DNA from: Clostridiales bacterium DTU033
GTDB lineage: Bacteria; Bacillota; Clostridia; Oscillospirales; Acutalibacteraceae
Direction of reading: 5' to 3'
Assembly (NCBI GenBank): GCA_001513365.1
Contig: LFTH01000067.1
Coordinates: 1-45,744 of the forward strand
Length of the DNA stretch: 45,744 nt
This document shows, in pieces, positions 38,563 through 45,744 of the stretch. The notes below the pieces were generated by a model. The model worked only from the letters and a program-made list of their open reading frames with translations, was not told the DNA's origin and searched no databases. The first letter of the stretch is position 1. Every line of letters begins with the position of its first letter. Both the position numbers and the translations under genes were made by a program.

Positions 38563-38620
38563 AATGCGTTTTTTCCTTTCCTATAAAATGAGTTTTGGCG
38601 AAAAGACTTTGATAATCTAA

Positions 38621-38649
38621 TTTATATCACTATATCGGTTGTCAGTCAA
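38621..38649 (-). promoter_or_regulatory. SigA-like promoter TTGACT-17-TATAAA (minus strand) for the pyridoxal kinase gene
   Basis: Motif and spacing; abuts the broken 5' edge of the glnN fragment. Confidence 0.6.
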
Positions 38650-38675
38650 CAATATTAAAACCAAATCTTTACTTT

Positions 38676-39506
38676 TTGCCGAAATTCCCCCGCGACAACA
38701 CCGACCGCAACAGGACATCCCCGTTTGCGTTCACCGGCAACAAGTTCGAGTTTCGGATGGTCGGAGCGGCCAGCAGTATCGCAGACGCGAACACCGTTCT
38801 TAACAGTTCGGTTGCCGAGTCGCTCAGAGTATTCGCCGACAGGCTGGAAGGCGCCGAGAACCTGAAAACCGCGCTGCATGAGCTTATCAAAGAGACCGTA
38901 AAGAAGCACAAGAGGATAGTATTCAACGGCAACGGGTACGACCAAAGATGGCTTAAGGAAGCGGTGGAAAAGCGCGGGTTGAAGAATTACCGCACCACTC
39001 CTGACTGCCTGCCGCGCCTGATGGACAAAAAGAATGTGGATATGCTGACACGGCACGGGGTGTATACCGAAGCTGAAATCAGGTCCAGATATGAAATCAT
39101 GACGGGCAACTACTGTAAGACGGTGATGATTGAAGCCAGCACCATGGTGGATATTGCGAGGACGCTGATTGCCCCGGCCGTCGAGGCCTATGCCGCCGAC
39201 GTCGCAAAGGCCGCCGCCGCAAAAAAGGCTCTGGACCCGGCGATTTCCTGCAGTTACGAAACAAGGCTGGTCCGAAAACTGTCCGCGCTGACAGACAGGA
39301 TAGCCTCAAAGACCGAGGAGCTTAACAACGCGCTGTTCGCATTGCAGAACGTGGAGGATGTCGGCACGAAAGCCGTGATGATTCGCGACAACCTGCTGAA
39401 CCTGATGGGCGAGTTGAGACTTGCGTGCGACGAGGCGGAAACCATCACCGCAAGAAGCTACTGGCCGTTCCCGACATACGCGGAGCTTTTGTACTGTGCA
39501 GGATAA
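38676..39506 (+). pseudogene. glnN: C-terminal fragment of type III glutamine synthetase (GSIII)
   Basis: Begins abruptly at PKFPRDNTDRNRTSPFAFTGNKFEFRMVGAASS and continues to the natural C-terminus ARSYWPFPTYAELLYCAG; about the first 60% of a GSIII is absent. Confidence 0.85.
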
Positions 39507-39584
39507 GTTCTGGTTTCAGGTTTGATTATTGGGGACAGCGCTGCGGGCGATTTGTAAAAATGCCAAAAAATTCATATTTTATTA

Positions 39585-39612
39585 TTGACAACATGCCCAA
39601 AGAGAGTATAAT
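39585..39612 (+). promoter_or_regulatory. Consensus SigA promoter TTGACA-16-TATAAT driving gatCAB
   Basis: Both hexamers match consensus exactly. Confidence 0.8.
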
Positions 39613-39621
39613 TTATTTAGC

Positions 39622-39662
39622 AAAAGGCAATGATGTCTTTGGTGTGGGCATCATTGCCTTTT
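39622..39662 (+). promoter_or_regulatory. 14-bp perfect stem-loop (AAAAGGCAATGATG / CATCATTGCCTTTT, 13-nt loop) at the predicted 5' end of the gatCAB transcript
   Basis: Inverted repeat begins about 10 nt after the -10 box; stem ends in a T tract. Confidence 0.8.
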
Positions 39663-39686
39663 TCATCCAAAAAGGGGTTGAACGCC

Positions 39687-39974
39687 TTGAAAATTGATAA
39701 AAAACTAATCAGGCATATTGCGGCGCTGGCAAAGCTTGAAATTGACGAAAATGATATTGATAAGTGGATTGGGCAGATGAACGAGATAATCGCCTTTGCC
39801 GACCGGCTGAATGAATTTAATTTGCAGGATTTCAGCGAAACGGCGCATGGGTTTGACGCGCCCGGTGTTTTTCTCGAGGACGTAAGAAAGCCGTCATATC
39901 CGAGAGAGGCAATGCTGGCGAACGCTCCGGATGTGGAAGGCGGATGTTATTCGGTGCCCATAATTGTCGAGTGA
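39687..39974 (+). CDS. gatC: Asp-tRNA(Asn)/Glu-tRNA(Gln) amidotransferase subunit C
   Basis: IRHIAALAKLEIDENDIDKWIGQMNEIIAFADRLNEFN; TTG start with upstream AAGGGG. Confidence 0.9.
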   Translation: MKIDKKLIRHIAALAKLEIDENDIDKWIGQMNEIIAFADRLNEFNLQDFSETAHGFDAPGVFLEDVRKPSYPREAMLANAPDVEGGCYSVPIIVE

Positions 39975-39982
39975 GGTAATAT

Positions 39983-41482
39983 ATGATACGGTTTGGAAAA
40001 AGCACGGTCAGGGAGCTTTCGGCTCTTTTGATGAACAGGGAGGTTTCCTCGACCGAGCTTGCGAAAGGCTATCTTGACAGGATAAAAGAATACGACCCGG
40101 CAATCGAAAGCTACATCACTGTATGCGAAAAAGAGGCAATGGACGCCGCAAAGAGCGCGGACAGGCGGATAGCGGCGGGCGAAAAAGGGGATTTGCTGGG
40201 AATTCCCGTCGGGATTAAGGACAACATCTGCACCTGCGGGATTAATACAACCTGCGGCTCCCGAATGCTTCACAACTTTGTGCCTCCATACGACGCCACG
40301 GTTGTCAGAAAGCTCAGGGAGGCCGACGCGGTTATCCTCGGCAAGCTCAATATGGACGAGTTTGCGATGGGTTCATCCACCGAAACCTCTTACTTCAAAA
40401 AGACAAAAAACCCTTATGATTTAACCTGCGTTCCCGGCGGCTCGTCCGGCGGTTCGGCCGCCGCGGTTTCCGCCGATTTGGCGGCTTTCGCGCTTGGCTC
40501 GGATACCGGCGGCTCAATCCGGCAGCCGGCTGCTTTTTGCGGCTGTGTGGGGCTTAAACCAACCTACGGGCTGGTATAGAGGTTTGGGCTGGTGGCGTTC
40601 GCCTCCTCCCTTGACCAAATCGGCCCGCTTGCCAAAACCGTCGAGGACTGCGCTCTAATCTTAAAACATATTGCCGGGCACGACGAAATGGACTCCACCT
40701 CGGCGAATGCCGAAATCCCGAACTATACGGCGGCACTGGGACGCGGCATAGCCGGTATGAGGATTGGGGTGCCGAAACAGTATCTTGAAAACGGGATACA
40801 GCCCGAAATCAAAAAAGCGGTGCTGGACGCCGTAAAGGTTTATGAGGATTTGGGCGCGGCATGTGAAGAATGCTCGCTGCCTTTGGTAGAATATGCTCTT
40901 TATGCTTACTATTTAATCTCATCGGCAGAGGCAAGCTCAAACCTTGCAAGGTACGACGGGGTGAAATATGGTTTCAGAGCAGATAACTTCGGGGATTTAA
41001 GAGATATGTACCTTAAAACCCGCAGTCAGGGCTTTGGCGAGGAAGTAAAAAGAAGGATAATGCTGGGCACCTTCGCGCTGAGTTCCGGATACTACGACGC
41101 GTATTATAAAAGATCCCGGCTGGTATCCGGGTTAATCAGTGATGAGTTTTCCGCCCGCTTTTCAAAATACGACGCGCTCCTGACCCCGACCACCCCGACC
41201 ACCGCTTTCCGTTTCGGGGAGAAAGCGGACCCGATTTCAATGTATATGGGGGACGTATGCACTGTCGCGGTGAATATCGCAGGGCTGCCGGCAATCAGCA
41301 TTCCCGCGGGTTTTGACGGCGCCGGCAAACCGATTGGCATTCAGCTTATCGCAGACCGCTTTGAGGAAGAAAAGCTGCTGCGCCTTGCATATTCTTATGA
41401 GAAGGTGGCCGGTTTTGAAAACGCCCGCCCTGAGCTTTCTGACGTAAAGGGGGGATTGCAGTGGACTACGAGACAATCATAG
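39983..41482 (+). pseudogene. gatA: Glu-tRNA(Gln) amidotransferase subunit A, interrupted by an in-frame TAG at 40577-40579
   Basis: ORF 39983-40579 ([42 protein letters not shown]) continues in the same frame as RFGLVAFASSLDQIGPLAKTVEDCA... to 41482. Confidence 0.92.
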
Positions 41483-42885
41483 GCCTTGAAATCCACGCCG
41501 AGCTTTCGACAGAGTCGAAGATTTTCTGCTCATGCTCCACCGAATTCGGTGCGGACGTGAATACCCATACCTGCCCCGTATGCACCGGAATGCCGGGAGT
41601 CCTGCCGGTTTTGAATAAAAAGGCGGTCGAATACGCGATTATGGCGGGGCTTGCAATGAACTGCAACATAACCCGTTACGGAAAACAGGACAGGAAAAAC
41701 TATTTTTACCCGGATTTGCCAAAAGGATACCAGATTTCACAGTACGACCTTCCAATATGCTATGGCGGGTACATGGAGATTGAAGCGGACGGCCAACAAA
41801 AAAAGATTGGCATAACCCGCATCCACATTGAGGAAGACGCCGGCAAGCTGATTCACGACGATTTCCTCGGAGTATCACTTGTGGATTACAACAGGGCCGG
41901 AGTGCCCCTGATAGAGATAGTAACCGAGCCGGACGTACGTTCAGCCGGAGAGGCGAAAGCCTTTCTGGAAAAGGTGAAATCCATACTGGAGTACACCGGC
42001 GTTTCGGATTGTAAAATGCAGGAGGGCTCGCTCAGGTGCGACATCAACCTTTCGGTAAGACCGATGGGGCAAAAGGAGTTAGGCACCCGCACCGAGATAA
42101 AAAACATCAATTCATTCAGCGCGGCGGTACGGGCAATCGAATTTGAGCGCAGCCGGCAGATTGGCTTGATTTCTGCCGGAAAAGAAGTGGCTCTGGCCAC
42201 TTTAAGATGGGACGACGAAAACGGGATAGGCTATGAAATGCGCTCAAAGGAAGAAGCCCACGACTACCGGTATTTTCCCGAGCCGGATTTGGCACCTGTT
42301 GTGATTGACGACGGGTGGATTGAAAAAATCAAAAACAGTTTACCGGAGCTGCCGGACGCAAGGAAGGAAAGGTATGTCAGCGATTTCGGCCTTCCCGAAT
42401 ACGATGCCGCCTTCATAACCGCTTCGCGAAAGCTGGCTGATTACTTTGAAAAGGCGGTCGAGCTTGGGGCGCCGCCGAAAATCGCGAGCAACTGGATTAT
42501 GGGAGACATATCAAGGCTGCTGAAAGACAGAGGGCTTGAGGATATCCCGTTTGCACCGGAATATCTTGTAAAAACCACTGATTTAATTGAAAAAGGTGTG
42601 GTCAGCACCACTGCTGCAAAAAGGATTGTAGCGGAGCTGTTTGACGGGGAAAAAGACCCCGAACAAATCGCAAAAGAGGCAGGGCTTATTCAGGTGAGCG
42701 ACGAGTCCGAGCTTGCACTGCTGGTAAAACAGGTTATTGACGAAAACCCCAAAGCGGTGGCGGAAGTCCGCGCCGGCAAGGAAAAGGCGATGGGGTTTTT
42801 AATCGGGCAGGCCATGCGAGTCTCAAAGGGGAGCGCAAACCCGCGGATTATCAGCAGGCTTGTAAGGAAAATGCTCGGACTCTAA
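41461..42885 (+). CDS. gatB: Asp-tRNA(Asn)/Glu-tRNA(Gln) amidotransferase subunit B
   Basis: [58 protein letters not shown]; full length; overlaps gatA. Confidence 0.96.
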
Positions 42886-43003
42886 CATGATAGAATTAGG
42901 CATTAGCATTTGCCGCGCTGCGCTTTGGACACAGAGCGTTTCTGCGAAAACCGCATTTTTGCCGCCTGCGGGCATATCAATTCATTGGAAGAGAGCTGAC
43001 AGG

Positions 43004-44535
43004 ATGGATAAAATTCTGGTTTTGGATTTCGGCGGGCAGTATAACCAGCTTATTGCGCGCAGGGTGCGCTCAGAGCAGGTGTACGCCGAGATTAGGCACT
43101 GCGATAAAATCACCCCGCCAGAGATTAAAAAAGTGGGGTACAGGGGTATTATCTTAACCGGCGGGCCGAACAGCGTCTACGAGCCGTCCTCGCCGCGCTA
43201 TGACCCCGCGGTGCTTGAGCTTGGGATACCGGTGCTTGGGATTTGCTACGGATTTCAGCTGCTCGCCTTTTTGGCGGGCGGCGAGGTAGCAACTGCGGAC
43301 TCCGGCAGCGAGTACGGCAGTACCACGCTTTATGCAAAAGGCAGCGCCCTGTTTGACGGAGTGCCGGAAGAAAGCGTTTGCTGGATGAGCCATACCGATA
43401 CGTGAAAAAACCGCCTGAAGGCTTTAAAACGATTGCCCGCACCGAAAAATGCCCCTGCGCCGCCCTCTGCGATGATAACCGCAAGCTGTACGGGGTGCAG
43501 TTTCATCCTGAAGTTTCACATACCGTTTACGGCAGGCAGATAATCCGCAATTTCATCTTTTCTATCTGCGGCTGCAGGCCGGACTGGAAAGCGGAAAACT
43601 TTGTAGAGAGCGCTATCCAAAAATACAAATCAGTGCTTTCGGGCAAAAAGGTTTTGCTGGCGCTTTCAGGCGGGGTGGATTCCACTGTGGCGGCGGCGCT
43701 TTTACACAAAGCTATCGGCAGAAACCTTATCTGCGTGTTTGTGGACCACGGGCTTTTGCGGAAAGGCGAAGGGGATTATGTTGAGAAAACCTTAAGCGGC
43801 GGACTGGGTATCAACCTTGTGCGCGTGAATGCCGGGGACAGGTTTTTAACAAGATTGTCGGGGGTGTCCGAACCGGAGAAAAAGCGCAAGATTATAGGCG
43901 AAGAATTTATAAGGGTGTTTGAAGAAGAGGCCAAAAAACTCGGCGCAATTGACGCGCTTGCTCAGGGTACCATTTACCCCGATGTCATCGAAAGCGGCAG
44001 CGGCGGTTCGGCGGTAATCAAAAGCCACCACAATGTCGGCGGGCTCCCCGATGTCATAGCGTTTAAGGAGATAATCGAGCCGCTGCGTGATTTGTTCAAG
44101 GATGAAGTGCGCGAAGTGGGGGAGCAGCTGGGTCTTCCGGGCAAACTTGTGTGGAGGCAGCCGTTCCCCGGTCCCGGCCTTGCGGTGCGGGTAACCGGAG
44201 AGGTTACAAAAGAAAAGCTTGGACTTCTGCGTGAAGCCGACGTGATTTTCCGTAAGGAGATTGAAAACGCGGGGCTTGAAAGAAAGGTCAACCAGTATTT
44301 TGCGGTGCTGACCGACTCCCGCAGCGTTGGCGTGATGGGGGACACGAGGACCTACGGATATACGGTGGCTCTGCGCGCGGTTACCACCGACGATTTCATG
44401 ACCGCCGAATGGGCAAGGCTGCCCTATGAGGTGCTGGCAAGGGCGTCCGGCAGGATTACAAACGAAGTCAGGGGCATTACCAGAGTGGTATATGACATAA
44501 CCTCAAAACCGCCGGCTACGGTGGAGTGGGAATAG
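43004..44535 (+). pseudogene. guaA: GMP synthase (glutamine-hydrolysing), split by a 1-nt frameshift near 43400
   Basis: First part ends CWMSHTDT* at 43405; second frame continues [22 protein letters not shown]...FHPEVSHT...[19 protein letters not shown]...KPPATVEWE. Expected HTDYVxKxPEGF is restored by one added T (GAT[T]ACGTG). Confidence 0.92.
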
Positions 44536-44554
44536 ACTGATAACGGAGGAAAAG

Positions 44555-45744
44555 ATGGCTATTCGCGAAGAATGCGGGGTTTTCGGCGTTTTTTCGCCAA
44601 GCCCTGATGATGTGGCGGCAATTTCATATTACGGGCTGTACGCTCTACAGCACAGGGGGCAGGAAAGCTGCGGCATTGTGGTGAACAGCGGCGGCGAGTT
44701 TGTGTCCCACAAGGATTTGGGGCTTGTCAGCGAGGTTTCCACAAAGGAAACCCTGTCCCGTATGCCGAGTGGTACGGCGGCGGTTGGCCACGTCCGGTAC
44801 GGCACCACCGGCAGGTCAAGCCGCAGCAACTGCCAGCCGATTGAAGTAAACCATTACATGGGAAAAATGGCGCTGGCCCATAACGGAAACCTCTCGAATG
44901 TGTGGGAGCTGAAAGAAAAGCTCGAACTATCGGGGGCTATTTTCCATACCACCAGCGACACCGAGACCGTTGCCTATATCATCACCAGAGAGAGACTGAA
45001 CGCGCCGTCGGTCGAGGACGCGGTAAGCCGCGCGATGGAGGTTATAGAAGGCGCTTATTCCCTGATTATTATGACGCCCGACAAATTAATCTGCGCAAGG
45101 GATATGTACGGGTTCAGGCCGCTGTGCTTTGGCAAAACCGCCGGCGGCGTTTACGTAGCTGCGTCCGAAAGCTGCGCGGTTAAAGCGGTGGGCGCCGAAG
45201 TTGTCAGGGATGTGGAGCCGGGCGAGATACTGGTGTTCAGCCGGGACGGGGTATTCTCCCGCACAGAGCACTGCGGCAAAAAGCAAAAACATCTCTGCAT
45301 ATTCGAGTACATCTATTTTGCGCGGCCGGATTCGGTAATCGACGGGGTTTCGGTCCACGCGTCCCGCGTGGACGCGGGCAGGAAGGATTACCAGCTGCTC
45401 TATTTTCAAAACGGCAAGGGAAGGTTTATGCTCGGTGAAACCTGCTATACGGTTTCGGAAGGCGAGTTTTTCATTTATTATCCGAACGAGCCGCAGCATT
45501 ATGAATATCGCCTTTCCGACACTCCGGATTTGTACTGGATTCACTTTACAGGCAAAGACGTGCCGCAGATACTGCAGCAGTTGGATTTTGCGGAGTCCCG
45601 ACGGTATCATGTCAGGGTAAAGGATGTCTATCACAGTTTATTCGATAAAATCATTCACGAACTGCAGATGAAACAAAGCCACTTTGAAAGTCTCGCAAAC
45701 ACTTATTTTCTTGAACTGCTGACCCTGATGTCCCGTTCGGCAAC
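44555..45744 (+). CDS. purF: Chimeric ORF open at the window end: PurF glutaminase domain fused in frame to an AraC-type N-terminal cupin/sensor domain
   Basis: EECGVFGVFSPSPDDVAAISYYGLYALQHRGQESCGIV...FEYIYFARPDSVIDGVSVHASRV (PurF), then AGRKDYQLLYFQNGKGRFMLGETCYTVSEGEFFIYYPNEPQHYEY...LYWIHFTG (AraC-family binding domain); no stop to 45744, so absent from the ORF track. Confidence 0.88.
   Translation, partial: MAIREECGVFGVFSPSPDDVAAISYYGLYALQHRGQESCGIVVNSGGEFVSHKDLGLVSEVSTKETLSRMPSGTAAVGHVRYGTTGRSSRSNCQPIEVNHYMGKMALAHNGNLSNVWELKEKLELSGAIFHTTSDTETVAYIITRERLNAPSVEDAVSRAMEVIEGAYSLIIMTPDKLICARDMYGFRPLCFGKTAGGVYVAASESCAVKAVGAEVVRDVEPGEILVFSRDGVFSRTEHCGKKQKHLCIFEYIYFARPDSVIDGVSVHASRVDAGRKDYQLLYFQNGKGRFMLGETCYTVSEGEFFIYYPNEPQHYEYRLSDTPDLYWIHFTGKDVPQILQQLDFAESRRYHVRVKDVYHSLFDKIIHELQMKQSHFESLANTYFLELLTLMSRSA
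45353..45373. repeat. Perfect 9-bp inverted repeat GTCCACGCG-TCC-CGCGTGGAC at the PurF/AraC junction
   Basis: Read directly from sequence. Confidence 0.9.

Follow-up and report, generated by a model that had tools for sequence, protein, structure and literature searches.

An in-frame purF-araC open reading frame beside a contig end in a draft Clostridiales genome: a probable chimeric join of two separate genes

The DNA analysed here (the window, i.e. the whole stretch of 45,744 nucleotides, G000:C139:1-45744) makes up the opening contiguous part of a scaffold of 59,424 bases (59.4 kb). The scaffold belongs to the draft, metagenome-derived genome of Clostridiales bacterium DTU033, which comprises 1.48 Mb in 141 contigs and is 77% complete. 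From 44555 to its end the window is occupied by an open frame in which residues 1-276 of a PurF are followed directly by the cupin sensor domain of an AraC-family regulator (Table 1). An uninterrupted frame of this kind was the subject of the original prediction, and was confirmed both by translation of 44555-45742, which yields 396 stop-free residues, and by matches to the NCBIfam purF model TIGR01134 and the Pfam AraC_binding model PF02311; these matches and the alignments of relatives also showed that its domain calls and the position it gave for the junction were correct.

Table 1. Coordinates of the features discussed in the text (window positions unless a locus is given)
Feature	Position	Strand	Basis or remark
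5'-truncated second glnA-III-type glutamine synthetase, homologous from residue 408/698	38616..39503	+	Intact copy on C43
gatA with in-frame TAG at 40577-40579	39980..41479	+	Intact second gatA on contig C22
guaA split by frameshift near 43400	42866..44532	+	
Second copy of purF, residues 1-276; Ntn-type glutaminase complete, phosphoribosyltransferase domain a short stub, 3' part missing	44555..45382	+	TIGR01134; 78% identity to intact 470-aa congener PurF
Perfect inverted repeat, GTCCACGCG-TCC-CGCGTGGAC, 9-nt arms, 3-nt loop	45353..45373		At junction; may be chance
purF/araC junction (codons 272-276)	about 45370..45384	+	End of PurF homology, start of AraC homology; DNA comparison with relatives
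5'-truncated araC-family gene, cupin sensor; about first 60 codons missing; continues past window after NN	45375..45744	+	PF02311; 61% identity to G007 AraC; HTH after gap
CarB-DapF frame	L093:6146-10204		Own genome, contig C67
CarB-DapF frame	L098:1537-5607		
CarB-DapF frame	L099:1493-5542		
CarB-DapF frame	L100:1461-5519		

The PurF part (residues 7-277) covers positions 1-262 of the 432 in TIGR01134 at 285.9 bits, which falls below the family cut-off of 350 bits because the second part of the model (positions 263-432) is missing. Comparison with the PurF proteins of the congeners G006 and G008 and with the Bacillus subtilis structure 1ao0, to which the alignment extends up to 1ao0 residue 264, shows that the class II (Ntn) glutaminase is present with its N-terminal Cys and conserved motifs. 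The type I phosphoribosyltransferase domain is reduced to a short stub without the PRPP loop, and the DDSxVRG motif of that loop is absent from the fused PurF part. On the other side, residues 276-389 correspond to positions 21-135 of the 135 in PF02311 (3.4e-12; 46.7 bits, above the cut-off of 21.1 bits), the N-terminal arm and the first cupin strands, i.e. the first 20 of the 135 positions, being lost.

At the junction the PurF proteins of relatives can be aligned as far as residue 275/276, and close matches to AraC start at residues 272-274. The exact point of joining is ambiguous because both parents read Gly-Arg there (..VRAGR.. in PurF and ..TGRKDYQLLY.. in AraC), and the 11-mer GGGCAGGAAGG at the junction is also found in the purF of G006. 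A short stretch common to both parents is what would be expected at a chimeric or a microhomology join. The join is internal to both domains and at the boundary of neither, that of PurF being one which we take, from the structure, to lie near residue 230. The inverted repeat at this point was considered as a recombination site and rejected, as hairpins with 9-nt arms are also present at several further sites along the scaffold and it matched no known element. No second copy of the junction 13-mer, which would have been a sign of an overlapping contig, was found. Random joining of two genes keeps both strand and frame about 1/6 of the time, and the retention of the frame is therefore no evidence of design.

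The end of the window is not the end of the scaffold: two Ns stand at 45745-45746, after which the sequence continues. Reading past 45744 for an AraC helix-turn-helix (HTH) domain, as had been proposed, gave a divided answer. The HTH domain of that AraC gene does follow the NN, at scaffold 45747-46016 on the same strand; it lies across the gap and outside the printed frame, which meets a stop just after the NN and before the HTH. Alignment with the AraC proteins from two congeners shows that some 25 residues linking the cupin to the HTH are absent at the NN, which we therefore read as a nominal gap marker; an NN is also present in contig C43. Beyond the HTH lie nadE and then galM, on the other strand. 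Scaffold gaps are written as 2 Ns twice, at L054:5745-5746 and L102:4171-4172, and as 149 Ns at L054:7685-7833; the last of these, in galM, also breaks the frame, indicating that gap sizes are unreliable.

Both parts of the frame have complete and separate counterparts in the genus. The PurF orthologues (G006, G008, G009 and G010) show 64-78% identity, with 78% for the 470-aa protein of G006 and 76% for the 478-aa protein of G008. The AraC orthologues of G007 (297 aa) and G005 (285 aa), with 50-61% identity in the cupin core, are each encoded divergently from a GH2 β-galactosidase gene (the enzyme being named by reading of its sequence), an arrangement suggesting that the AraC protein is probably a regulator of sugar utilisation. 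An intact purF, for which a search of the genome had been suggested, is present on contig C93 in the pur operon. For the start of araC, the phosphoribosyltransferase part of purF, lacZ, and the carA-carB-dapF-dapL genes of the truncated purF's operon, only distant paralogues were found on the other contigs of the 77%-complete assembly. The nitrogen/purine block around guaA and purF differs among relatives (L048, L050 and L049), the order being gatB-guaA-glmS-purF-carA-carB-dapF-dapL-nadE in G006, glnA-amtB-guaA-purF-carA-carB-dapF-dapL in G012 and glnA-amtB-purF in G008. In the last of these an unrelated regulator follows purF, implying that this end of the operon varies.

No match spanning the junction was found in 12 congeneric genomes, or in 40 relatives. 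When a junction-centred peptide was compared with 394 genomes of the order, 255 matched one side of it, and among the matches listed both sides were matched only in the genome itself. When 84,980 species genomes were scanned by pattern, the PurF matches stopped at the same point except for two weak overhangs; the alignments of L065 and L066 past residue 276 look like over-extended low-identity PurF matches. A literature search for a PurF-AraC fusion returned nothing relevant. The recurrence in related genomes by which a genuine fusion might be recognised was thus seen neither in the genus nor in the relatives, the order or the species-genome scan. A different case is offered by CarB and DapF, which share one stop-free frame of 1350-1357 codons with a conserved linker, STELV[DN]INNMRS, in four of the four genus genomes read. 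Going by sequence, this is a true conserved fusion and a model of what a real one looks like, and we know of no CarB-DapF fusion in the literature. It resembles purF-araC in placing two metabolic genes in one stop-free frame, and is unlike it in that four genomes share it, the linker being conserved among them.

These comparisons bear directly on the proposal that the frame encodes a novel regulator, in which a glutamine-hydrolysing Ntn domain carried by an AraC-type transcription factor would serve perhaps in glutamine sensing or local ammonia release. The frame is kept, the catalytic Cys and conserved glutaminase motifs are intact, and an AraC HTH lies downstream on the same strand, all of which would suit such a protein. 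However, the fusion is unique to this contig, the join falls inside both domains and not at a linker, and the frame as printed stops just past the NN, short of the HTH. With no relative carrying the fusion, the parents separate and complete in congeners, and the join near a contig end, this proposal of the original prediction found no support; we consider a functional fusion highly improbable, and a strain-specific nitrogen-responsive regulator made of the PurF Ntn domain, the AraC sensor and the HTH hardly to be expected. Were it real and functional it would be, to our knowledge, the first case of an AraC regulator that carries a class II glutaminase.

The truncated purF closes a block, 38616-45382, that has a half gene at either edge, namely the truncated glnA at 38616 and the truncated purF at 45382. 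Genes of which this block holds an extra copy are intact elsewhere, with purF on C93, glnA-III on C43, and gatA together with gatB on C22. The glnA-III truncation (window 38580-38631), the second abrupt one in the contig, comes directly after pdxK, which is on the other strand. Those genes outside the block that were checked appear intact. A foreign or contaminant origin of the block was rejected, as its GC and tetranucleotide composition match the genome (0.932 versus 0.930-0.957 for other chunks). In a comparison of pN/pS, taken without the figures for galM and yqfD on account of their out-of-frame coordinates, gatB, guaA and purF are under purifying selection like their neighbours (0.18-0.20). 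The possibility of an old pseudogene block was likewise set aside, since these values are as low as those of the neighbours, and any decay would accordingly be very recent.

In light of this block, a real deletion or rearrangement in the strain can be entertained as the main, though less likely, alternative. It would have removed the 3' part of a redundant purF along with the 5' part of the downstream araC, and what stayed behind would be an in-frame remnant free of selection; purine synthesis would then depend on the other purF, the intact copy in the pur operon. The presence of that second copy is consistent with such an event, as are the richness of the block in broken extra copies, among them glnA-III and gatA with intact versions elsewhere, and the lack of the lost halves from the rest of the assembly. 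It also accommodates the genome-like composition of the block, the neighbourhood of nadE and purF in G006 as well, and the variability of the operon end, as seen with the regulator after purF in G008. Yet the position of the junction, only 370 bp before a contig ends at a mis-sized gap, would be an unlikely coincidence for a deletion, and the pN/pS values of gatB, guaA and purF would require that the decay be very recent.

The reading we favour, with a probability of roughly 0.6, is that two unrelated genes of one draft genome were joined into the open frame as a chimera, either while the library was prepared or during assembly. The original prediction had offered a chimeric join as one of its options, and this option (or else a one-off deletion scar) is supported by the lack of the fusion in relatives, the separate parents, and the contig end with its mis-sized gap. 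All homology switches abruptly at one point, residues 274-276, and 370 bases downstream the contiguous piece ends at a nominal 2-N gap that hides about 25 AraC codons; a nominal NN of this kind is present in another contig too. Further arguments for this reading are that both parents are complete and separate in the genus, that no junction-spanning match came from the genus, relatives, order or species-genome scan, and that both domains are cut internally, with loss of the PRPP loop in one and of the first AraC_binding positions in the other. So are the other local faults, namely the in-frame stop in gatA, the frameshift in guaA and the truncated glnA, and the contrast of purF-araC with CarB-DapF, the true fusion of the genus, which is present in each of the four genomes read. 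Counting against a chimera, the missing parts of purF, araC and lacZ were not found on other contigs, although the assembly lacks about 23% of the genome, and the purF-side block has the composition of the genome. Moreover, nadE, which lies beyond the junction, is near purF in G006 too, so that the sequences on either side of the junction may really be near neighbours. From the observed domain content, breakpoint, lack in relatives, contig end and mis-sized gap we infer that joining outside the cell is most likely. The weights assigned to the three readings, whether given as a figure or in words, are matters of judgement and were not computed.

Were the frame such a chimera, the contig running through the second purF copy would have been extended into an AraC-family gene, within its 5' part, at a short stretch where GC-rich Gly-Arg codons are common to both; it would then have stopped 370 bases on and been scaffolded across the nominal 2-N gap to the remainder of araC. 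The cell itself would have purF and araC as two distinct genes, and no fusion protein is predicted. The case is a cautionary one, in that a draft genome can show two familiar domains fused in frame and without a stop when no real fusion underlies them. Most such cases can be settled by looking in congeners for both parents as full-length genes of their own and by noting the distance to contig ends.

Set against known systems, the frame shares with PurF (TIGR01134; Bacillus subtilis 1ao0/1gph) the same complete N-terminal glutaminase with its Cys nucleophile (residues 7-276), whereas the phosphoribosyltransferase domain and PRPP loop of PurF are missing here. With the AraC orthologues of G007 and G005 (PF02311 cupin, beside the GH2 β-galactosidase) it has in common a similar cupin core, followed after the gap by the HTH, while their N-terminal arm and first strands are replaced here by PurF and about 25 cupin-HTH codons are unassembled. 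Finally, the GATase1-like AraC regulators of the GlxA type combine a DJ-1/PfpI-like domain with an AraC HTH, and are thus alike in having an amidotransferase-like domain alongside such an HTH; in them, however, a class I triad-type domain replaces the cupin, whereas here a class II Ntn domain precedes it.
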